64,000 nt of DNA from Neelides folsomi (taxonomy: Eukaryota > Arthropoda > Collembola > Neelipleona > Neelidae), in NCBI GenBank assembly GCA_034687125.1, contig JAQGBZ010000293.1, positions 1-64,000 of the forward strand. The letters are read 5' to 3'. Under the pieces are notes generated by a model. It saw only the letters and a list, made by a program, of their open reading frames with translations. It was not told the DNA's origin and searched no databases. The first letter of the stretch is position 1. Each line of letters opens with the position of its first letter. Shown piece by piece: positions 17,788 to 39,542 of the stretch. The position numbers and the translations under genes are program-made.

Positions 17788-20700
17788 ATGGAGGAAACTG
17801 ATATTTTGGCGGAAAGATTTGGTGTCGGTGAATATTTGGTGTTTGGGGCCGTTTTGGCATGTTCCACAGCTGTGGGAATTTTCTATGGATGTTCCGGAAG
17901 TCGACAGGCGAGCAACGAAGAGTTTTTAATGGGAAACCGAAAAATGACTCCATTTCCTGTTGCTCTTTCGCTCGTTTGCAGGTTTTTGAATTTTAACTTT
18001 AGAATAGAAATTAAGTTTTAAAATAATTAGTAATCAGATAGGTTCTTAGGTTAGATAGATCTCTTCATTCGACTCGATTGAGTTATTCATTTAATTCATT
18101 ATTGATTGTCTTGATGCGTTTTAGTTTTCAATCTGCCATTTCCATACTTGGAAATCCTGTGGAATTGTATTTGTATGGAATACAATACTCTTTGATCCTC
18201 GTGGTTTTCATCCCACTCACTTTAACCTTGGCATATCTCTATGTTCCGGTTTTTCTTACACTCAAATTAACATCGGCGTTTGAAGTAAGGCGATTATTTT
18301 TATTATTTTTGAAATTGTCAATTTCTATAAATTGGAACTTTAACTTTTTTCAGTATTTCGAATTGAGATTTAATAGCAAGAGAATTCGAAGATTTATTTC
18401 AGTCATATCAATTCTCGACCTCGTAAGTTTAATGAAAAAGATAACTACTACAGGGTAACCCTTAAGTAATGCAACACCCTTAAAAAGATTATACCTTTTT
18501 AATATTTGACTCTTGCGAGGCTGTAGAGGGTAGGTTGAGGCGATGCATTGAAGTTAATGGAGGTCAAATTACCAATTAAAGTTTACGTACTCATTATTAG
18601 ATGCACTAATTGTATGTACAGTATGCTAATTGTAGGAAAAATTGATTAATAAATAAAGATTATACGATTGATTGAATCATGTTGCGTTACTTAAGGGCTA
18701 CCCTGTATACTTATATAGTAGTACAAATTATTTATGTATTTGCGAATTTACATACGTTTTACATACAAATATATGGTACCATACATATATTTATGAAGAT
18801 TGAAAATTCTCATAATTCTTCAATATTTTATTGATAAAAACTTAATTGAGATCATGGGCTCATGCTTTCATAAATAATAACGTTTCAGATTGTTTATATG
18901 CCCATGGCCGTCTACAGTCCAGCACTTGCATTAAGTCAAGGTATGAAAATAAGAAAAAAAATTTTCAAAACTACTAATGGTATTTCTATTTGATTAATTT
19001 AAGTTTAATTTTTAAGTGACTGGAATTCATCATCGAATCTCAGTAGTGGCAATATTCATTGTTTGCATTTTTTACTCAACTTTAGGTGGTTTAAAGGTTT
19101 CTTTAACTTAATTTCTGTTATTCTTAATGTTACTTTATGTCAAGTTCTATCATCGCATCTTATTATTTTATTCTTAGGCAGTATTATGGACTGATGCTTT
19201 CCAATGTATTATCATGATTGGCTCTTTGGCTCTCATAGTATTCAAAGGAGTAGCTGACGTTGGAGGTCTTTCATTCATGTGGGAAAAAGTACAAGAATCT
19301 CAAAGGGACAATTTTTTAAAGTATGTTAAATATTCTAAATAAATATTGGATATAAATGTTAATATTATTTACCTTATTTAAAGTTTTGATTTTGATCCTC
19401 GCACTCGCCACACTGTGTGGACTTCCCTATTTGGTGGATATTTCTTTTGGCTAACTCTCTATGCGGCAAGTCAAGCAAATATTCAGAGATTCTCTTCACT
19501 TCCAGACTTGGCAGCCGTCAAGAAGTAAATCTTCCTTCATTCATCTCCAATAATCGAAAAAATAGGCCAATACGAAATAACAATATTTATATAAAATTTC
19601 CTAAATTCTATCAAATTTATTATATAAAATATATATCTAGGTTAGTATAGTATTTTTCTCAATATATTTATGTATATCTTGGAACATATCTAAATATATT
19701 CTAATCATACAGATTGATGTAAATTGTATATTTGTGAAGATGTTTGGCGATCAATGTGGTCGCTTTGTATCTCCTTCTAGTCTTTTGTTTATTTACTGGA
19801 CCACTTATCTTTGCTCGCTACTTCAACTGCGATCCTGTTACCATCGGCCGAGTTTCAACATCCGACCAACTCCTTCCACTCTTTGTGATGGACACTCTCG
19901 GGGAATATACAACATTACCTGGAATATTTGTAGCTGGAATTACATGTGCAAGTTTAAGGTTAATTTAATTTAAAATATGGATCATGAAAGATAAACTACT
20001 TTAAAAGTTATATAAAATTAAATATAATTAATTTAACTTTTAATAATAAAATGATTCGGCAGTTCCGTTTCTTCAGGATTGAATTCTTTAGCTGCTGTGA
20101 TCACTGAAGATTATGTTAAACAATGGAAGTCCAACTTGAGTGATGAGAAATTGTCCTTCATTTCCAAAATGATCTGTTTGACCAGCGGCGTCCTTTCGCT
20201 TTCACTCGTTTTTGTGGTGGAACGGATGGAAAATATTTTACCAGTACATTTTCACAATAGTTTTATGATCAATTTTTATATGAATTTTTATACCATTATA
20301 CACAAATACATACAATCTTTTGCATACATCTTATATGACATAAGTACACATACAACATTTAGTATTTATGAATTTTTTTGTATGATTCGAAATATTGTTG
20401 AATGTGACAGTTGAGGAATAATGATAGGTGACAGTTTCCCTCGTGGGTGTTGTGTCCGGGCCTGCCCTTGGCATTTTCACTCTTGGAATGTTTTTCCCCT
20501 GGGCAAACTCAAGGGTGAGTTTTTATCTTCCAATTCGCAATTCAAATATATATTTTATTTACTTTTTTCCTTATCATAAAACTTTTATTTACAAAGTTTT
20601 TCAACCCTCAATCTCGAATATTTATATGCAAATGAGTAAGTATATTAAATAATCATTTTTATAAAAGAAAATTTTGCAATAAAATTATTTATTTGGATGT

Positions 20701-24761: not shown

Positions 24762-26599
24762 TTATTCTGTTGGAGGTAAGGCCCCTTTGAATTGCACCAC
24801 AAGAATTGCATAAGTCAATATGAGGCTCAGGATCTGCAAGATATAAATTAGAAATCACAATTTGTAAAAAAATTGTAGAAATGTCGAATGTAGAGGAAAG
24901 AAAGAAAATGAAAGATTAAAGATTATTTTATATTGTTTTTTTACTACATGGTCCTCATATGGTAAGCTCTGAGAGTGAAGGGAACTTACTGCTCCTGCAA
25001 GACCTGAAGTAACGTGAAAGAAGCCGTAACCATTGAGACTGATTTCATTGGTCGTGATGTCGTGCATCATTAACTCCACTTTCCCAGAATGGACCTTGTA
25101 AAACTTGTCAGATTCCATCAGCCAGCTCTTCACATCTCCACTCTGCAAATCCCAACATGTGTGGATTAATCAAGAGGATTTTTTAATTCTCCTCTTTACG
25201 ATGATATTTGCATAAATGGCAAAGAACACGGCAGCAATGAAATTTCCCAAAGGCAAGGCGGTGAGGAATAAAAAGATCCCGTCTTTCATTTCCAACATTT
25301 CCACAATGTTGATGGCATAGAAGGGAACTCAAAAGAAAATGATAAATTTTTTAATTAATTAACATCATGATTAATATAATAATTATTATTTATATTTAAT
25401 TTAATCATGTTATGATTTAATTATTATCGGAAACCTGATCCAAGAAAAAAGAATAAAATGTGCATTCCAATACATTCGTTCAATAAATCAATAGTTCTTT
25501 TTAGCCCATCGTAATGGATGAGAAACTGAAATGTATTTTTATATAAAAAATTTAATTTTGAATAAAACATTATTAAGGATGGTTTCTAAATTCATTAAAT
25601 GACCTCATCAGTTGTATAACGTTCACTTTTAAGATTTGACAAGAAATCTTCAAGAAGATGCCAAAACGTGATTGAACCCAAAAGGACAAAAATATCAGAG
25701 AAATTCCTAAATAAGTTATTGGATATTCGAGCAATTGTGAATAAAATCATTAAGAAAACTGAAAGAATTTCATTGATCTTTTCATTGTCTTTGTTAAGGA
25801 AAAACATTGGTTTCGTTCTTATCCAAAGATCCCCGCGAGTGGAGAAGCCGTAAATAAATGACACAACAACGTGTAAAATCCCAATGACACAAAAAGTTGT
25901 AGATATCCATTTTGCCTAAATTTTATACAGGTATTAGGGATTAAGCCAAACCAAGATTTTAAAAAATGTTAAATAGAACCATTATAATTAAATATTTTAA
26001 TAGGTTCTAATAATTTCCACTTCATATATTTAGCTAACCACTTGTGACTTTTTAACATAATTGATTTTAAGATTTGAGGTCCTAAAATCATTCATTAGTT
26101 GGACGAAATTCTCTCGTTTAGCCCAAATCCTTACAATGATGAAAATATGGTAAAGAGAGTAAATGAGAAAAGAAGAAAGCTCAATGTATAAAATAGAATT
26201 CTTTTTAAAACTTTCCAGATTGAGATCTTTCAAGTAGACGAAAATTGTAAACAATGCCAGGAATTGGGTTATGATGCAGAAAATCTGTAAATTAACAAAT
26301 TGGACGATTGATGAAATGTGATCAATGTAATTAACCGAATTTCGATGAAATATGTATTTGTAGAGAGAAGTATTCAGACTAATTTTTTAAGTTGTTCTCA
26401 TTACCTTCTGAACAAAGTATTCTTTGATTTGGTATGTTCTGTCCGAGTTGTCAAATTGAATGAAATAAGGCGTGATGAAGCACCCAAAGGTGAATTTGAA
26501 ATATGTGGCAAAATATTGGTAACAATTACTTTGATTCTCCTCATTCTCTGAATCATTGTTATTTAATGAGCTCCAAATTGAGAGCAACTCGCGATTCAT
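24762..26599 (-). CDS. Gustatory receptor (7TM_7 family), copy B
   Basis: Seven exons (26405-26599, 26042-26284, 25604-25915, 25435-25525, 25200-25327, 24990-25142, 24762-24833) join with phases 0,0,0,1,0,0 to give 397 aa. About seven hydrophobic segments are visible and the C-terminus carries the family signature ILTYAILVVQFK (TYhhhhhQF). Gustatory receptors are ligand-gated cation channels in chemosensory neurons. This is the 3'-most of three same-strand receptors separated by only a few hundred bases, which indicates tandem duplication. Intron positions and phases equal those of copy A at 12060-14351. It appears intact: no frameshift or stop, and all splice sites are GT-AG. Confidence 0.88.
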
Positions 26600-27059
26600 A
26601 ATTACTAACTTGTTTAATTGGGAAAATTATTTCGAATTAAAATTAAATTATTTAGAAATATTGGAAATATAAACGCGATCAAAAAATCAACCCCCAAAGC
26701 AAAAAAGGTCGTTAGAATTAAAATTTTATTTCAAAATAATATCCATACAATACTTGTATTTGTGTAGTTTAATAAATTCAACGGTTTAACTTTATCTATA
26801 TGCCAATAATATTTAAGAAGAGTATTTATTTTTATTTATTTGACTTTCTTTGGGTAATCTTTGAAATTTTCGTGATCGAATACAGTCAGGTTTTTATTGT
26901 GACATTTATGTATAAACGAAACAAAGGCTCTTTATTTATTCATTGTATAATCAATACGATCATTTAATGATACACAGCATTTACCAGACACTTAAAAATC
27001 ATATCGAAATACCTTTTAAAATTGACATTTTTCCAATTTTATTAGGTATAAATAAGGAA

Positions 27060-29070
27060 TTATTTAACTTGGGCGTTATCAATGAAGGCTTCAACTCCTG
27101 ATGCATCAGATAATGTGTCATCCGTTTTAAATTGAACTACCAGAATTGCATAAGTCAGAATGAGACTCACAATCTAAATAGTGACAATATTAAGAAGAGT
27201 TTTATCAATATTACTCTATACACATCAATATTTAATTATACTTTTAGAGATAAATTTTTATATATAAGTATATATATTTCTTGTTCTTGATCGTAATATT
27301 TAAATTTCTGTACCGTTCCAACTACTCCAGAAGTAGCGGAAAAATACCCACTCCCGCTCATGCTGATTTCATTATTAGAAATCGTATGAAGAACCATGGA
27401 CCATTTGGCTGGAGGGATTTGTTCAAATTTCTCTTCTTCGGTCATCCAGTCAATGATTTCAAAAGACTTTAAAAATCAAATATTTATACAGTTTTTATAT
27501 AGTATTTTTATTATTAAAAATAATTTATTGGGTATATAGTGTCAATTTCCATACTTTATTATTAAGCCTAGCAGAAAGAGCCAATGTAAGGAAATATTGG
27601 AGAAGCTTCATTGAATTGCTCAAGAGCAGAAAAAGATCCGAAGCCTCCATGATGTTCACAACCTTCAAAGATCAAAACCATTCAACCCAAGGGACGATTA
27701 GTTCATTAATTAAAAAACATTCCTTACAACCTACATTGATAGAATAAAAGGCAATTGGGGCCAAAAAGGCAAAGAAGATGAAGAGCCCTCCAGCAGAATT
27801 AATTGAATTGAGAACTTCCACGAATTCATCAAAACATTTCATCATCTTTAATTAATAAAAGAAATTAAGATTCCAATCTTTTAGCCCACCATTATTTGAA
27901 ACATTTCAACATTATCATTACAACAAAAATGTATCATTAAAATCATTGTATTTAGCTATTTATAGCAAGTTAATTTTAATTAATTAGCAGGAATAGTTAA
28001 TGGTGCTTTAATGGAGTGTTTTATATTACCCGCCCCGGCGATCCTTTTTCTAGTTTCATTTGAGTGAAAGCATCGGAGAGACAATGGGAAGCCGCGATGA
28101 CACAAAGTATGGCGAAAGTATCAGAAATATTTTTCAACAATTTCCCTTCCAAGCTTGCAATTATAAAGATGAATGAAATGATACCATTGAGGCTTTCAGG
28201 TCCATTGAAATTCGGATTAATAAAAAACATAAACTTCCCTTGTTGGGCGATGGAATCAAAATTCCCGGTGTTTGACAGTGATTTGTTGGATTTAATATTT
28301 GAGATTTGGCCTTGGCCAATTTCATAACAAACATTGATAATAGCTTGTAGAACGGAACCAATACATAATAATGATGTTACAGCCTTTACCTATTATTTAT
28401 AAAAATTCATTCATACTTATCTGTATATGTATGCATATATCATACAAGTAGTAGAATGTAAATTTTGTTTGTGATATTTTGTGCAGATATATAATTTATT
28501 GATAATTTACAGTTCTCGGCCGACCGGAGCTTCTGGAATGAAATATTGTATTTAATTGTAATTGATTTACAAGCGTGATGAAGACATCTGCTTTGACCCA
28601 CAATACCCAAATAATTCCAATGTGATAAATCGAATTCATGGCGAGATCTGCAAGCTCAATGTAAAGCGTAGGTTGCTTCTTCAGATCTTTCTCTTTGATC
28701 AGGCGGAAGGTCGTGGTGAGGGAAAATAAACCGAGGAATTGCAAAATGAAGCATAAACCCTTCAAAATCATCAAAATAAAAATTATTAGTTTTATAAATG
28801 ATAAATCTTTATTTTATGTAAAAGTGTATTTACACGTGTAACAGTCAGTATGAATAATATTGATATTTTACTATTTATGATATAAAATTAATTAACCCTT
28901 TGAAGAATGTTTGATTTCACTTCAAGCCTTCCGGTTTGTTTCTCCAAATCAAAGGAAAATGGGCAGAGGAGAAAACCATGAGCAAATTTAAAGTAAATTT
29001 TGAAATATTCGACCCAACTTGTTTGAATGGAAGTGTGGAGGAACGCAAATTCATTCATGTAAGACTTCAT
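27060..29070 (-). CDS. Gustatory receptor (7TM_7 family), copy C
   Basis: Seven exons (28897-29070, 28511-28759, 28030-28383, 27735-27845, 27555-27662, 27314-27466, 27060-27173) join to give 420 aa. The tail IVSLILTYAILVVQFK is nearly identical to those of copies B and D. The start is the first in-frame ATG (MKSYMNEFAF); the longer open frame has no ATG upstream. The fourth intron lies inside FYSIN|VVNIME, about seven residues downstream of the phase-1 intron of copies A and B, and is phase 0. The C-terminus after the QF motif is longer and acidic. The gene is intact and sits in the middle of the array. Confidence 0.87.
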
Positions 29071-29873
29071 TGAAAAACACTTTTTAATCCCCTGATCAAA
29101 ATCCAAAATAACAAAACCAATGGGGAAAAGACTTTAACAGTTATAGGATAGCCCCTGCATCTGCATTATTTAAATTTTGTTACCAACTAAACGAGAATTT
29201 TTATTAATGCACATGATGGGCCAATGTATAACTTAAGCGCAAATTCACCGTGAATGAATTATAATTAACTAAAATTTTAATTATATAAAATTAACTAATT
29301 AAGGTATATAAAACATTCAAATCCCCATAAAATTGTGCATTGCAAAAAATGGTAATTTGGTAAACTTTGAATGACGTTGAGAATTTTTTGATATAAATTA
29401 TTAACTGATTCCACAACAGTTGACAATTATGCGAACGATTGTGTCATTAAGGCGATTTCCGAATATGGAAAGTTCACATGAAAAGATTAAATTTTAAAGG
29501 TCTCATCTATAATTCACAAAAGTCTCTCTTTATCACATTTCATCACTTGTCGGTCAGTTAAGATTAAGATGTTTAGTAATTATTAATCAGCTTCATACAT
29601 TAATTATAAATTTCATACTCTTTATCTTTGCTTATTAGTAAATGTATGTAAATTTTGAATGAAGGTAAATTATTAAGAATTTGGAAATCCTATCAATCAT
29701 ATTGTCGTTTTGAGTATGAAATTAGAATTAAGATTAAAATCCACTCAGGTCATTAAAATTATCATATAAATTGAATATTTTATGGTTCAAAAACTAATAA
29801 AATTGCATATTTTCTAAAAACACTCAACATGTGTAAAATTTTTATTTATTAAATTATTAAAAATAAATTGAAT

Positions 29874-32260
29874 CTACAAAGTTATTGTTCCATTTCCAGC
29901 ATTTTCACCAAGGGGGTTGTTTTCATCTCCACCAAGTGAAGTGGCTTCAAATTGAACCACAATGATGGCATAAGTCAAGATGAGACTCACAATCTACAGA
30001 AATATTCCAGATATACTCTCCATATAGGGAAATATTTGAAAATTCAAAATGTTCGATTTTTAATGTAACATTTATAAATATTTGAAATGTTACACTTTAA
30101 GAATATTGTAATTTTGTAATGTTAATTAAAACAATGTGTATGTGTACCGTTCCAAGCAAACCAGAGCTCGCCACAAAATATCCTTTAGCATTCAATCCAA
30201 TTTCATCATTTGTCAGATCATATAAAATCATGCTCAATTTTGCTTCTCCAATCTTCTTATAATTCTCATTAGTTTCTAGCCATTCTTTAAATTTAATTTC
30301 CTATGAAATTCAAATCAAGTCAAATTAGTTTATTTATGTAATTAAAGTTATTTACGTTTCCAATTCTTGCAATCATCATTTCCTATCTAGAAAGAATAGC
30401 TAGTAATAAGCTATTTATTATAAGTAAAATATTTAAATGTGAATGGACGCATAGTATTTACTTAAAATTAAACTGCACAATGGACAATAGCTTTCAACAT
30501 TTCCAAATTAAAGTGCAAAACATCAAAAAGGAAAAAAAAGTTTGTCTAAAAGGGGAAATTTCGATTTAAAAAGGAGTTTGATGAAAAGAAGCATTTGGTA
30601 AATTGAGAGTTCCATCTGAGAAAGGAATCTTCCCATTGTCCTCCACATTTCCTATACAAAAGGAACGAGAGGGATTGTGCAGATGATATTTCTCTATTTG
30701 CTTATTGCTATCATTGTCGTCCTTTCCCCACCACATGTATCCGCCTGATTGACGTCCATTGTGTTCCTTCCACATTTCGGTCCTAAATATTTGGGACATT
30801 TGGGATTGTTCCGATGTGTTCCCAACCTTGTTATTGATTCTCGCTGCGAGGATGAGGGTCGTGAAGTAAAATCCGAGATTTATGCATTTGTTGAGAAGCA
30901 GAAGTTTCTCTGACGTGTGGAGGACCTTCACTATATTGATAGCGTAGTCAGGGACGGGAGTGAGGAAGATGAAAAAAATAAATTCCCCAACAGATCCATT
31001 CAAAAGGTTCACAAAACCCTTCAATCCATTGTAGCTTTCTTCAAACTAGGATATTTAATAATAACAATATTAAATAATATCAACATTGCTGAAATTCAAT
31101 AAAATCATACCTTTGTATTGTATAGCTACAATAATACAAATATTGTTATATTGTTTTGATATAAAATAACAATAAAGTATATCAATCAATTCATATGATT
31201 TTCAAACATATTATTAAATTCCGCAGTGGTTGCCAATTTTGAAATTTTGAAATTCTATTTTAATTTTGGTATTTTTGTGTTAGTTAATTGAACGCAATAA
31301 GGCATTTGAAAATTTACCGTTTCCGGACTCATTTCATTTTTAATCGCATGGAGAAAATCGTTGATGACATGTCTGAAGAGGAGAACGGAGAGGATCCCAA
31401 TTGTGATAGAAAAGTTCTTGAGCACTTCGTGGAATAATTTGAAGATGAGGAAAAGGAAAGAAAGGAAAATGGTCAATGGGAAATTTCCATTGTGAGCAGA
31501 TTGAGGAACGAAGAACATGTATTGGGCATTAGAATAAAGATCACTCAAGAAACGGTCACTTGAAAATGGATCTTGGCTGATTTCATAAAGAAGCGAAATG
31601 ACCGATTGGAGGAAAGAAATTGTTAACAAAAATACGGCTACAATTTTTGTCTGGAATTTAAGTTTACATTAAATTAATAATCACATGTGATTTTTAATTT
31701 ATTAAAATTGATTTTATTAATTACCTGAAAAATAGTTCCAGAAAAATAATTGTTTAAAATATTTGCTTCAAGGTTTTCTATTAGGCTGAGAAATAAATTA
31801 GAATTTGTCCATAACATGAAAATGACTCTTATTGTAAAAAAGCTTCCAAGGCCGATATTAGCTAATTGGATGTATAAAAGAGGATTCTTGGTGAAATCGG
31901 CTTCTCGGATGATCCGAATATTTGTGATAATGCATAAAATGGAACATGAATGGGAAATGATGACAAGAAGCTGTATTGATTAAAAGTAAATATGATTTAT
32001 ATTACATCATTATATTAATTTGTTAATTAATTTATTTGTAAAGTGAAATAAATTATTTCGATTACTTTTTGAATTTTACTTATTTTGATCACATTGTTTC
32101 GAGTTTCATTTTCTTTTCCAAAACGAAAAGGACAACAACAAAAGTAAAATCCATATTTAAAGTAGATTAACAAATATGCTGAACATGATTTTGTCTTTTC
32201 TTCATCCTTCACATTGATCAATTTTTGTAAACAAGTTTCAATAAACTTTAAAAACTTCAT
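29874..32260 (-). CDS. Gustatory receptor (7TM_7 family), copy D
   Basis: Six exons (32066-32260, 31725-31970, 31318-31650, 30827-31045, 30148-30300, 29874-29993) join to give 421 aa. The family signature ILTYAIIVVQFE closes the last membrane segment. The fourth exon corresponds to exons 4 plus 5 of the other copies, so one intron is absent. The following intron (30301-30826) is unusually long for this array. Start is MKFLKFIETC. The polar C-terminal extension is rich in Gly/Asn/Glu. The gene looks functional: no stop and GT-AG junctions throughout. Confidence 0.86.
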
Positions 32261-34892: not shown

Positions 34893-37800
34893 CTATTCGT
34901 TATTCTCATTATCATTTACATTATTAAATACGTATTTGTTTAAAATATCTAAAATCCAAACATTAAATGAGTCAACATGAGTAAAGACGTTGTAACTTTC
35001 ATCACTGCAATATTCCCCTTTTGGTTTTTTTCCAAAGCTCACGATCCCCTAAAAGTTGAATTGAATTAGTATTTTAAATTTAATTATTCTAACTTAATAT
35101 TCAAAGTTTAAAGATACAATATACTTCATTTCCGTGAATTTGTAAATTTAATTAAAAAGTATAAAATACGAACCTTAAGGACGTATTTTCTATGGGAGGC
35201 TCTGACTGTTTCGGTAAAGACAAATCCTCCTCCTGAATCTCCTTGGCATGTTGAGATTGAACCTAAAATTTCATATTCAAATTATACATTATATCAAATA
35301 ACATTAAATATTTTGAATAATTAAAATTAAAAGCCTTAAAGTTATTTTCAAGTAAGCAAGTGTAATTGACCCACCATTATGAAAACCTCCACAAAACATT
35401 GCTTGTGAAAGTTTAACATTTAGATTTTTCTCACAGGCCGCCGGTGCAGCGGTGGGAATTTGAGCAAAGGAAAGATATTGGGATACTTTATCAAATTTGG
35501 TAGCTCCGAATCCCGGAACTTTTCCCAATTTCCCAACAGGTGGTTTTTGTGATAAATTGGACATTAAATAGCAAACTGGGCGAATGAAGGATGTGTAATT
35601 AACAGGTTGATCAAGCTGAATTAGACTAATGTCTGATCTCACTAATTGAGAAGAACTTTGGAATGTTCTTGGTTTCCAAATCCCTTTAACGCTAAAGATT
35701 TGGGCATGGAGATCTTCAACATTATCTTCGTAATTAGGATTCAACGGTGCTAAAACAATTTGCAAGGAATCGAATTGAACATAATTGTTGAACTCGTCCG
35801 TGACACAATGAGCGGCGGATAAAATCACGTTTTTCTCAATTAAAGATCCACCACAGATATATCGGAAACCCCCATTGGCATCTTTTTGAAATATGGCGGC
35901 ATGCCATGGAAAACTGTTTTTGTTATTTACAGGTCGACCATTTGCAATAAAAGGAGCAATTTCTTCTCTATTTATAATACCGCAATCTGAAATGTCCAAA
36001 AAATAATTACTTTAAAATTATGAAGTTTAATATATAAATATGTAAATACAATAAAAAGTTTAATTAATCAGTTTAAAGATAAAATGCCATTTTTGTCATA
36101 TAAACTTTGAAACTAATCAAAATAAATATCATTGGAATAAAAAATAAATTGTAATTTTGTCAAAAAGTTATACTGTTTTTTAATAAAATTGTTAATTATT
36201 TACTGGATTGTTTACGAGAGAATAAATTAAATGGCTCGCGTCAATCCAACAAATTATCCACCACCACTACCATACGATGAAATAGCCTTTAATAATCCAA
36301 ATGTATGCTAACAAATTATTAATAAACCAAGTTTAATAATATTGTTTTTTGAATACTACTATTTAATAAATGGCATATTCTTTTAATCACTACATTAAAA
36401 CATTCCTTACTCTTTTGTGTGAATTACAATAAATATTATAATGATTTGATAATTATTTTTAAGATTAATTCAACACTTCCTGTCGCATCTCAACATTTTG
36501 AGTCCAGCGGAGAAATTTCTCCTCAAGATGTAAACCCAAATGAATCCACATTGGCTCCAAGCTTACAAGAGAACATTCCAGTGGTAGAGCCAAGTTTAGT
36601 GAGAAATCAACGCCCTGTCGAAAATACCGCCGTTGAAATCATTTCTCTTGCTCGATTTCGTGCTGGTTGGGATAGTTATTGGGATAGACCCGGATACAAC
36701 AATTATGGGTTTAGAAATAATGATGGCTTTGCAATGTGTTGCGGATCAGCTGGAATGTGCTGTTTTTCGTACATCGTCGCTATTTGTTGTTGCTACTGTG
36801 CAATAATAGCCCTCGCTTTAGTGGGAAGTTTAATGGGATTTGGACCTGATATGGGAGAAACGACAACGACAACAACAAATTCAGTATGGTAAAACCAACT
36901 ACAGATTCAACTCTGTCATGATTATACTAAATATAATTAAAAGTATTATTTTGAAAAGTAAAGTCAGGATTGTCATATTGAATAAAACATAATTAAAAGT
37001 TATTGATGCTTGTTTATTTAAAATATAATTTATCGTTAGGTTAATCATACATACCTAGGCTTGTTATATAATGTAGGTTGTAATAGTAGGCTTTTTATCA
37101 TATTGATCAATTTTTCATTGATAGATTTTTGGATATTTTTTAAACTCAAAAATTTTTCTTACCAGCTTTGCATACAAATGCTTTAAAAGGAGTCCATTGA
37201 CCATCAGGTCCGCAAGTCATTCTCCAATATTTGTAGCGTTGTTTTGAAACAAAGAATTCTGCACAAGAGCGAGTCAAAATGGTTCCTTCCTCAGCAACTT
37301 CACCACATGGAATTGGCTTTTGATTTCGATCATGACAACTCAATTTTACACCCTAAATAAAAATTAAGATTAAAAAGATTAATCAAAATCTTTCCAAAAG
37401 ACAATAACGTTTAGGGCAAAAGGGCACTTTCTTACCCACCATCTATAAATGCCATTGATAACATGATAACCCAATGGTCAATCGGGTCAGAAATACTAAT
37501 GTTAGGTGGCGCAAAAGATTGTTCTATAATGCCCCAATTTAACTAAAGCCTCGCCTCGCTCACCTCATAATGTGGAATTGCTAAGCAAGAATTCCTCTCG
37601 CTTTTCTTGATCGTTGTTGAAGGAAGTTGGAATTTGGCCACGTGTTCTTGGATCTTTCTTGTTTTGAGACAAAGAGCGAATTCCTCATCAGTTCCACTTG
37701 GACAATCTTCCTTCCCATCACACAATTTTTCTTTCCGAATGCATTTCCCATGCAGATGACATTGATGACCAGAGGAACAATTGGATCCAAGACTTGCTTT

Positions 37801-39542
37801 ACAATAACTTTCATCTTCATCAGATTTGTCATTGCAGTCATCCTTGAAATCAAAATTATTTAAATATTTATATACTACTTAAACGAAACAAATCTTTTTA
37901 TTTGAATGATAAATTTTTAATTTTATAAAATTTTATAAAAATAATTTTGGCTTTATATTTAATGTTTATAAAATATAAATACTTTTCCATTGCACACGCT
38001 TATAAAAGGGATACAAGTTCCATCTGCACAAGCATACATTTCTTTTTCACTGCAACTATATATAAAGAATATTTATTTTAAGAATATTTATTAAATTGTA
38101 TAAGATTGTTCCATAAAATGGTTAACTTATAATATAATTAATAATAAATATTAAATTCATATTAAATATTCATACTAGACATTCTTCGAAATCCAAATTG
38201 AAATAAATTGAACATTCCCAAAGAAATATATTGTATTCGTATTGCATTTCCCCTTTGTCCTTTTGGGAATTAAAGCCAAAATTCCAACCACAGTCTGAGA
38301 ATTCTTTGCCATTAAAGAACTTCCATGCAAAAGACATCTCTCATTTCGGTTCCTTAAAGCCCTAAGATCAATCCCGTGGTCATTTCCTCCTTCAAAATGA
38401 ATATTCGTCCTTTTCGAATCTCCTCTCCCGCATATCAAATTCGTATTTGATTCCTTATAGTAAAACTTGAACGCTTCGGAACACTCTTCCACGTTCTCGG
38501 TTTTAATGCTACTCTTGTAAAGTGGAAAACCGCCCTTTTCCGCCGTAGCTGGAGAGGAAAATCCTCCAAAGAAACCATCACTTTCAATTACCCGCAGGTC
38601 ATCTTCACCAGATTTCGCAAAATCTTTATATTCTCTTTCCTCATTATTTCCTCTCCTTGGTTCTTCAGAACCGGGAAGACAAGCACTTCGAGCAAATGGA
38701 CTTGACAAATCCAATTTCCTCTTAAGGTGAAGAAGAACATAATGATATTTATTGTATGATCCGTCATAGATGGTTTCATTCAATAATGGATTTCTCAAAG
38801 TGGCGGATGTTTTGAGAGAGAAATAAGGAAGGACATGAGAAACATAAGAGATCTGAGTGTTTTGATCGCCATCACGAAGATTTGTTGATTTTAGCCCAAC
38901 GGCCACAAGGTAATTTTCCCCATCTTCAATCCTGTAGTTGGGAGTGGGAAAAGGGCCGCCGAATAAAGTAAGGATCGTATTTTCTCCCAAAATGATCCCA
39001 CTTGTAAGGAACTTGAACGGAGAACTCCTTGAAGGCCGTGTGTATAATCCCGCCGTCCATGGCACTTGAGTTCGGATATCGTTTGAGAGAAGCCCGGGGA
39101 TTTGGCCGCAACCTGGATTTTAAAAATTCGATATGTTCTTAAAATAATTGAAAAATGATTTTTTTCTAATATAGACTTTTTCTAGTGTATTTATTTTCCA
39201 TTTTCCAACTGAGCTCTACAGTACTCTCTATAGAATTTATTTACATTTTATTATTTTTTTTATATATTTAGTTTATTTTTTTATTTATTTACAGTTTATT
39301 ATTTATTTTTTATTATTCCTTTGTTTGATTTATCTATTGAATTTTTTATATTTTAACTCACGAGAGGAAATTTCATGAGACGACACGAACTCCGAAGCAC
39401 CAATGACAATATTTGGGAATGTGAGGAAGAATAAAAGGCAGCAATTGGTAAATAAAATTGAACAATTGAGTAAACTGAAACACTTTGTTAAGATCAAATT
39501 ATTTGGGAAAATAAAATTATTGGTGGATTTGAAGGTAAACAT
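34893..39542 (-). CDS. Modular serine protease: SP-homologue, LDLa x2, CCP, trypsin domain
   Basis: Eight exons (39362-39542, 38176-39112, 37983-38055, 37564-37842, 37163-37352, 35375-35986, 35174-35262, 34893-35048) fit in phase to give 838 aa. Order: hydrophobic leader (about 26-46); protease-like domain (about 61-372) lacking the AAHC histidine motif; two LDLa modules (about 373-450; CNGK/DDCNDKSDEDESYC, then CDGKEDCPSGTDEE); a CCP/sushi-type module (about 475-553); and an S1A protease with SAAHC, SDISLIQL and STCQGDSGGG, so the triad is complete. LDLa-CCP-protease order is that of ModSP/HP14-type initiators of Toll and melanization cascades. Position 189 is Ser, suggesting chymotrypsin-like specificity, and the likely activation site IAPF|IANG has Phe at P1. 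The extra N-terminal domain is unusual; the link to it (CTA|GTATGA donor) could instead be a gene boundary. A nested opposite-strand gene lies in the intron 35987-37162. Confidence 0.75.
36231..36892 (+). CDS. Nested Cys-rich single-pass membrane protein, unrecognised
   Basis: Two exons (36231-36302 and 36464-36892) join in phase 0 to give 166 aa; donor AAT|GTATGC and acceptor TTTTTAAG. The start MARVNPTNYPPPLPYDEIAF lies in good context. The N-terminal two thirds are polar (Ser/Pro/Glu/Asn-rich) with a proline-tyrosine patch. A segment of about 40 residues near the C-terminus is a cysteine-packed hydrophobic stretch (MCCGSAGMCCFSYIVAIC, then CCYCAIIALALVGSLMGF), probably one membrane span with palmitoylatable cysteines. 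The tail is a short Thr run. I recognise no family. It lies entirely inside an intron of the modular protease on the opposite strand. An AATAAA follows about 90 bp after the stop. Confidence 0.7.

Follow-up and report, generated by a model that had tools for sequence, protein, structure and literature searches.

In the 64,000-nucleotide stretch of the Neelides folsomi genome analyzed here (the window; contig JAQGBZ010000293.1, assembly GCA_034687125.1), the minus-strand locus at 39542-34893 is best explained overall as one gene, which probably encodes a secreted multidomain protease. The predicted product consists of a leader, an S1-type pseudoprotease (the protease-like domain, PLD), two LDLa modules, a six-Cys Wonton-like module, and an S1 protease domain. 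Five further loci in the same genome show the same organization. At the level of sequence, the comparison of these six genes establishes the order of the domains, their fusion, the loss of catalytic residues from the N-terminal domain, an intact catalytic triad in the C-terminal domain of three genes, and the conservation of the dead domain.

Structure of the Gene

The exon borders were rebuilt by re-reading the minus strand, locating the splice sites, and splicing the resulting pieces. Eight exons give 2517 nt, corresponding to 838 codons and a stop codon, with no internal stop; all introns are GT-AG and their phases are, in order, 1, 2, 0, 0, 1, 1, and 0. A first-pass annotation of this DNA had proposed one long frame made of eight phase-consistent exons, and the borders, splice sites, and phases were all reproduced. 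The features are given below; the positions inside exon 4 and the codon positions in exons 6 and 7 are hand counts.

Exon 1, 39362..39542, minus strand: start codon and signal-peptide-like leader, the hydrophobic core of which starts near residue 33; ends in phase 1
Exon 2, 38176..39112, minus strand: the entire PLD, with the catalytic residues replaced
Junction intron, 38056..38175, minus strand: phase 2; read-through meets a TAG immediately (38177-38175)
Exon 3, 37983..38055, minus strand: initial part of LDLa 1
Exon 4, 37564..37842, minus strand: end of LDLa 1, LDLa 2 (~37779-37669), linker, and the first Cys of the Wonton-like module (start ~37587)
Exon 5, 37163..37352, minus strand: remainder of the six-Cys Wonton-like module
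Exon 6, 35375..35986, minus strand: linking Cys-Gly, predicted activation site APF|IANG (Phe codon 35951-35949), His57 (35810-35808), and Asp102 (35633-35631)
Exon 7, 35174..35262, minus strand: active-site serine in GDSGGG (Ser codon 35236-35234)
Exon 8, 34893..35048, minus strand: end of the protease domain and stop codon

A Family of Paralogous Genes

The genome that holds the window (75.1 Mb, 840 contigs) was searched with three parts of the protein. PLD matches were found at five other loci, on contigs C115, C216, C346, C438, and C582, and at all five the LDLa and protease matches come next after the PLD on the same strand. Spliced alignment of the 838-residue protein to these loci gave the same domain order in every case, with stop-free models of 721 to 788 residues. 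Re-searching the genome with the C115 and C438 PLDs gave no seventh clear PLD; weak additional matches to the C438 PLD lie on C220, C385, and C43 (E 0.001 to 0.05). A scan of viral contigs with a PLD profile returned 64 pattern matches and no confirmed relative. As judged from the gene models, the genome contains a family of at least six PLD-LDLa-Wonton-like-protease genes. The earlier claim that a dead protease domain stands ahead of LDLa modules in one frame is thereby upheld, for an S1-type PLD and as a property of a gene family rather than of a single case.

A predicted leader-type exon followed by a phase-1 intron can be placed before the PLD in all six genes. For C115, C216, C346, and C438, the small 5' exons proposed by the aligner were swapped for signal exons found by scanning; the leader of C582, which has a weak donor, was chosen by eye, and the start of its PLD exon was also shifted. 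C582 departs from the family in LDLa 1 as well (exon 18283-18601), where the first and third Cys are both lost. These two residues are disulfide partners in LDLa modules, and their joint loss would be expected of such a pair.

The genome also holds further ModSP-like genes (the class is compared below) in which no PLD was found, on C39, C236 (perhaps two tandem copies), C379, and C136; the C136 model contains doubtful small exons, and only its protease domain was used. A Wonton-like stretch precedes a protease on C351 and C166, again with no PLD found, and only protease sequence was seen on C202. Initiator-type proteases seem to be expanded in this genome.

The Junction between the PLD and LDLa Modules

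In the window gene, the donor CTA|GTATGA splits an in-frame TAG at 38177-38175. The last base of the intron is 38056, after which LDLa 1 resumes as Y-CSEKEMYAC. The first-pass annotation had proposed that the stop is bypassed at this donor and that the frame enters the LDLa module in the right phase, a prediction with which the open spliced frame and the paralogues both agree. The junction is a phase-2 intron in five of the six genes (the window gene, C115, C216, C438, and C582). In C346 there is no junction intron, and a single 592-nt exon spans the PLD and the first LDLa, reading ...HLDWIYQSYNCSPFKFACSDGTCIP...; one open frame of 206 residues gives both the PLD match and the LDLa match. In all six genes, the last Trp of the PLD lies at an identical distance from the position of the first Cys of LDLa 1. 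Because the intron-less paralogue puts the junction at the same point, the splice prediction in the window appears to be correctly placed, and because five paralogues share the domain order, C346 without any junction intron, the fusion is independent of a single splice prediction.

The locus could instead comprise two separate genes, one for a short secreted pseudoprotease that terminates with the TAG at 38175 and, after it, one for an LDLa-Wonton-protease. A stop codon is present at the junction, AATAAA words occur in the AT-rich interval of 120 nt, and the ModSP-like C39 and C236 carry a candidate signal exon about 250-260 nt or less before the LDLa, so that genes of the LDLa-start kind exist in this genome. 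However, C39 and C236 also show what such a leader looks like, and a leader scan found no leader exon inside the 120-nt junction intron. This result is in line with the earlier remark that the LDLa exons have no signal peptide of their own nearby. With the junction phase kept in five of six genes and a continuous exon in C346, two separate genes are highly improbable, and this arrangement was rejected on the strength of the paralogue models and the leader scan. Other candidate routes to the LDLa modules were an out-of-frame reading frame with an ATG (38779; phase-2 donor at 38591, score 3.6) and two weak phase-2 donors within exon 1, one at 39483 (score 1.1), where the hydrophobic core has not yet ended, and the other at 39390 (score -0.2). 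None of them looks like a proper leader route. Skipping of the PLD exon from the main exon-1 donor would shift the frame, because exon 1 ends in phase 1 and exon 3 needs phase 2.

A single gene might also make two products, the full-length protein and a free secreted pseudoprotease from transcripts that retain the junction intron or are polyadenylated early. In the window gene, a retained intron would halt the frame at once at the TAG, and C115, C216, and C438, inspected by eye, also stop right after the donor on read-through. However, phase-2 donors that begin with GTAA or GTAG yield such stops automatically. Since C582 has no stop directly after its donor and C346 has no intron there, a free pseudoprotease would not be a conserved product of the family, and a second product of this kind is considered unlikely.

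Identity of the PLD

A profile built from the six aligned PLDs finds S1 proteases when compared with PDB chains (factor X scores best, E 4.8e-10), and hhalign aligned the PLDs with the protease domains of the family end to end over 247 columns (99.0% probability, E 3.6e-18). Among single PLDs, three of six match Pfam Trypsin (best 1.1e-5), and the PLD of the window gene alone gave no Pfam match at E up to 10. In the joint alignment of PLDs and protease domains, the positions of His57 and Asp102 (chymotrypsin numbering) are replaced in all six PLDs regardless of gap placement. The Cys42 and Cys58 positions are both lost in all six, and the Cys that would form the pairs 1-122, 168-182, and 191-220 are kept; six Cys are invariant across the PLD alignment. 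No IVGG-type activation motif remains. By profile and alignment, the PLD is a real S1 relative lacking the catalytic His and Asp, which places the N-terminal domain among the S1 serine protease homologues (SPHs), whose triad residues are missing.

Three points count against this account of the N-terminal region. The Ser195 position is also replaced in all six PLDs as aligned, but this loss hinges on a gap, with a Ser standing one column past the invariant Gly in four of the six. AlphaFold, given the PLD exon as a single sequence without an alignment, returned a mean pLDDT of 33.7 and was not used, and the assignment of the fold therefore rests on the profiles. Finally, the leader exons of the paralogues are predictions, with two candidates each in C115 and C216 and one picked by eye in C582.

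The Middle Modules and C-Terminal Protease

The Cys-rich module before the protease has six conserved Cys, invariant in the family, and a linking Cys. It had been labeled CCP in the first-pass annotation; a module is indeed present at this place, but its six Cys do not fit a four-Cys CCP and it is better described as Wonton-like, the Wonton domain being defined as Sushi-like with six Cys (PMC10036332). Pfam Sushi is matched by two of the six family members (best 1.9e-4), the window gene not among them, and the likeness to a Wonton domain (Sushi-like, six Cys, directly before the protease) is one of Cys count.

The window enzyme retains its triad (AAHC, DISL, and GDSGGG). It has Ser189 by register and a predicted activation site, APF|IANG, with a non-basic P1 residue (by eye), which together predict a chymotrypsin/elastase-type pocket and a non-basic activation site. 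All seven triad-intact genes that were modeled, three from the PLD family and four ModSP-like, have Phe or Tyr at P1 and Ser or Ala at residue 189 (by eye). Within the family, the window gene, C438, and C582 keep the full triad; the second domain has lost His and Ser in C115, Asp and Ser in C216, and all three residues in C346. The C-terminal enzyme bears a resemblance to the HP14/ModSP initiator class. This earlier assignment is supported, by resemblance, in the triad, GDSGGG, the uncharged residue 189, the aromatic P1, and the Wonton-like module, and fails for the number of LDLa modules, the Sushi domain, and the N-terminal order.

Origin of the PLD

Introns were mapped onto the joint alignment of PLDs and protease domains. 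A phase-0 intron falls at one alignment column in four of the six PLDs and five of the six protease domains. A phase-1 intron opens both domains, lying immediately before Cys-Gly in three PLDs and all six protease domains, and two to four residues ahead of Cys-Gly in the remaining three PLDs. Neither intron was found at this place and phase in the models of C39, C236, and C379 or, less certainly, C136. A third intron, of phase 1, lies at positions within one to three columns of each other in two PLDs and six protease domains, in a gapped stretch; it is not specific to the family, since the PLD-less C39, C236, and C379 have it too. In both C39 and C236, the LDLa is directly preceded by a candidate signal exon whose donor is of phase 1. 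Because introns are shared between the PLD and the protease domain, we infer, with good support, that the PLD is a duplicate of the protease module of this same family, placed in the phase-1 intron that followed the signal peptide of a ModSP-like gene.

The tree is not the basis of this proposal. Built from 19 domains, it places the PLDs in one group (100/100) and the protease domains of the family in another (85/92), a pattern consistent with the multiplication of an already fused gene as a whole. It leaves the sister of the PLD group unsettled, the family's own protease domains included, and the PLD branch is long. This weighs against an internal duplication, and so does part of the intron record: one intron in the C346 PLD has no exact match (column 193 vs. 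203), one in the C582 PLD is unmatched (phase 1, vs. phase 0 in the next column), and no intron interrupts the PLD in the window gene or C115.

Conservation of the PLD

The PLD could be a passive, functionless remnant of the domain duplication. It lacks a working catalytic site, its branch is long in C438 and C582, and each of the three pairs of triad-intact genes shows lower identity in the PLD (31, 32, and 26%) than in the protease domain (44, 40, and 47%). Averaged over all 15 pairs, however, its conservation equals that of the enzyme (34.8% vs. 35.2%, with 34.9% for the middle region), its six Cys are invariant, and no stop or frameshift interrupts the six gene models. Among the damaged-triad genes it is the PLD that is better conserved (44, 48, and 37% vs. 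30, 37, and 28% for the protease domain). Ratios of PLD to protease tip lengths, worked by hand from the tree, are 0.40-0.46 in the damaged genes and 0.92, 2.8, and 2.9 in the intact ones. The split between intact and damaged genes is suggestive only, because a clean split among six genes has a 1 in 20 chance. Taken with the averaged conservation, a functionless PLD appears improbable.

Other Genes in the Window

A small plus-strand gene at ~36231-36892 seems to lie within the 1.2-kb intron that precedes the protease exon. It has a proline-rich start (MARVNPTNYPPPLPYDEIAF, by eye) and a Cys-rich membrane stretch, and its main open reading frame has no Pfam match at E up to 0.01. Several similar-looking hydrophobic open frames occupy 24800-32000 on the minus strand; they are perhaps, as a guess, a tandem array of chemoreceptor-type genes, and three that were tested did not exceed a Pfam cut-off. 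On the same strand, an exon at 8519-8878 matches the juvenile-hormone-binding-protein family JHBP (Pfam, E 1.5e-7).

Comparison with Known Systems

HP14 and its orthologues are composed of LDLrA repeats, Sushi, Wonton, and a serine protease domain; the honeybee orthologue SP49 has GDSGGG, the site SKTL|IVNG, and elastase-type specificity letters E(SSS) (PMC1761132), and ModSP has been termed chymoelastase-like (PMC10732536). The window family is like ModSP and HP14 in its LDLa modules, a six-Cys Wonton-type module directly before the protease, GDSGGG, the lack of Asp189, and a non-basic P1. It differs in the pseudoprotease before the LDLa modules, in the absence of a separate four-Cys Sushi domain, and in the loss of catalytic residues from three of its six members; the window gene has two LDLa modules, compared with four to five at the N terminus. 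Because it departs in LDLa count, Sushi domain, and N-terminal order, the gene is regarded as of a ModSP-like kind and not as a ModSP orthologue.

Nudel likewise combines LDLa modules, an active protease domain (PD), and a protease-like domain in one polypeptide, but in the order LDLa-PD-LDLa-PLD-LDLa, with the PLD after the enzyme and no Wonton in the architecture given (PMC10036332); in the window gene the PLD comes first. The SP-SP proteins SP17 and SP27 of the honeybee also have two S1 domains per chain. In their case both domains are listed with enzyme specificities rather than as dead domains, and no LDLa or Wonton is given (PMC1761132). Spheroide, a Drosophila SPH, resembles the PLD as an S1 domain whose triad is dead, and it acts positively in Toll activation, but it is a separate protein, unfused to an active protease, and acts in the danger branch (PMC5718610). 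The first-pass annotation knew of no described example of the present order, and none with a PLD before LDLa-CCP/Wonton-protease was found in the open-access full-text literature available, a scope that leaves out annotated arthropod protein databases. In the passages checked, two papers on Collembola mention no serine proteases (PMC4468109) and no modular proteases (PMC10051947). The architecture is a pseudoprotease-first variant of the ModSP-like kind whose nearest known kinds are Nudel, the SP-SP proteins, and the SPHs.

Proposed Mechanism and Role

HP14 and ModSP are LDLa-Sushi-Wonton-protease zymogens that autoactivate when recognition proteins bind microbial polymers (PMC1761132, PMC7215089, PMC10732536, PMC10036332), and the N-terminal LDLa domains of HP14 bind a recognition protein (PMC7215089). 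By analogy, the C-terminal protease may be a zymogen of this type that activates itself by a cut after Phe (APF|IANG), with the chains remaining joined by the Cys1-Cys122 disulfide. Self-activation would fit GDSGGG, Ser189, and the Phe at this site, with Phe or Tyr in all the triad-intact genes modeled. The PLD would serve as a non-catalytic docking surface, drawing either recognition proteins or sister molecules toward the zymogen; our best guess is a role in docking or assembly, because the PLD takes the N-terminal place of the recognition-binding LDLa modules of HP14. On this model, the three genes whose second domain is damaged would act as silent partners, or decoys, that make use of the PLD. 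The sensor or scaffold role that the first-pass annotation had suggested for the pseudoprotease is likewise hypothetical. Taken jointly, these steps are offered tentatively and fall a little short of an even chance.

The genome contains CLIP-domain (seven matches), Spaetzle (ten), and hemocyanin/prophenoloxidase-type sequences (three, at a single locus). On the other side of the balance, the initiator role is argued by analogy, and a search for CBM39, one kind of recognition protein, gave no matches, with a control that was equally silent.

The PLD might alternatively act as an intramolecular brake, packing on the protease or the activation site so that the zymogen stays silent until the PLD is removed by a ligand or by proteolysis. 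Its fusion to the zymogen and the constant length of its linker to LDLa 1 would suit such a role. The retention of the PLD in genes without an active protease is hard to explain by a brake alone, and we regard this possibility as rather remote. A bolder extension of the docking model treats the PLD as the shared working part of the family: the PLDs of active and doubly dead paralogues would bind each other or the same recognition protein, the dead members forming a platform or decoy and the active members firing by mutual cleavage after Phe or Tyr. This two-tier arrangement is speculative and, on balance, unlikely; if true, it would amount to a template-and-executor system made from duplicated copies of one protease module.

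In the insect examples compared here, initiators of Toll signaling and melanization begin with LDLa modules and immune pseudoproteases are separate proteins. In N. folsomi both are fused in one chain across six paralogues, three of which have a damaged enzyme and all of which retain the pseudo-domain. The family gives the pseudoprotease module a traceable origin, an internal duplication marked by shared introns, and makes the role of a pseudoprotease at the start of a cascade testable in one protein by domain deletion. The PLD fusion could thus reveal how pseudoproteases steer immune cascades.

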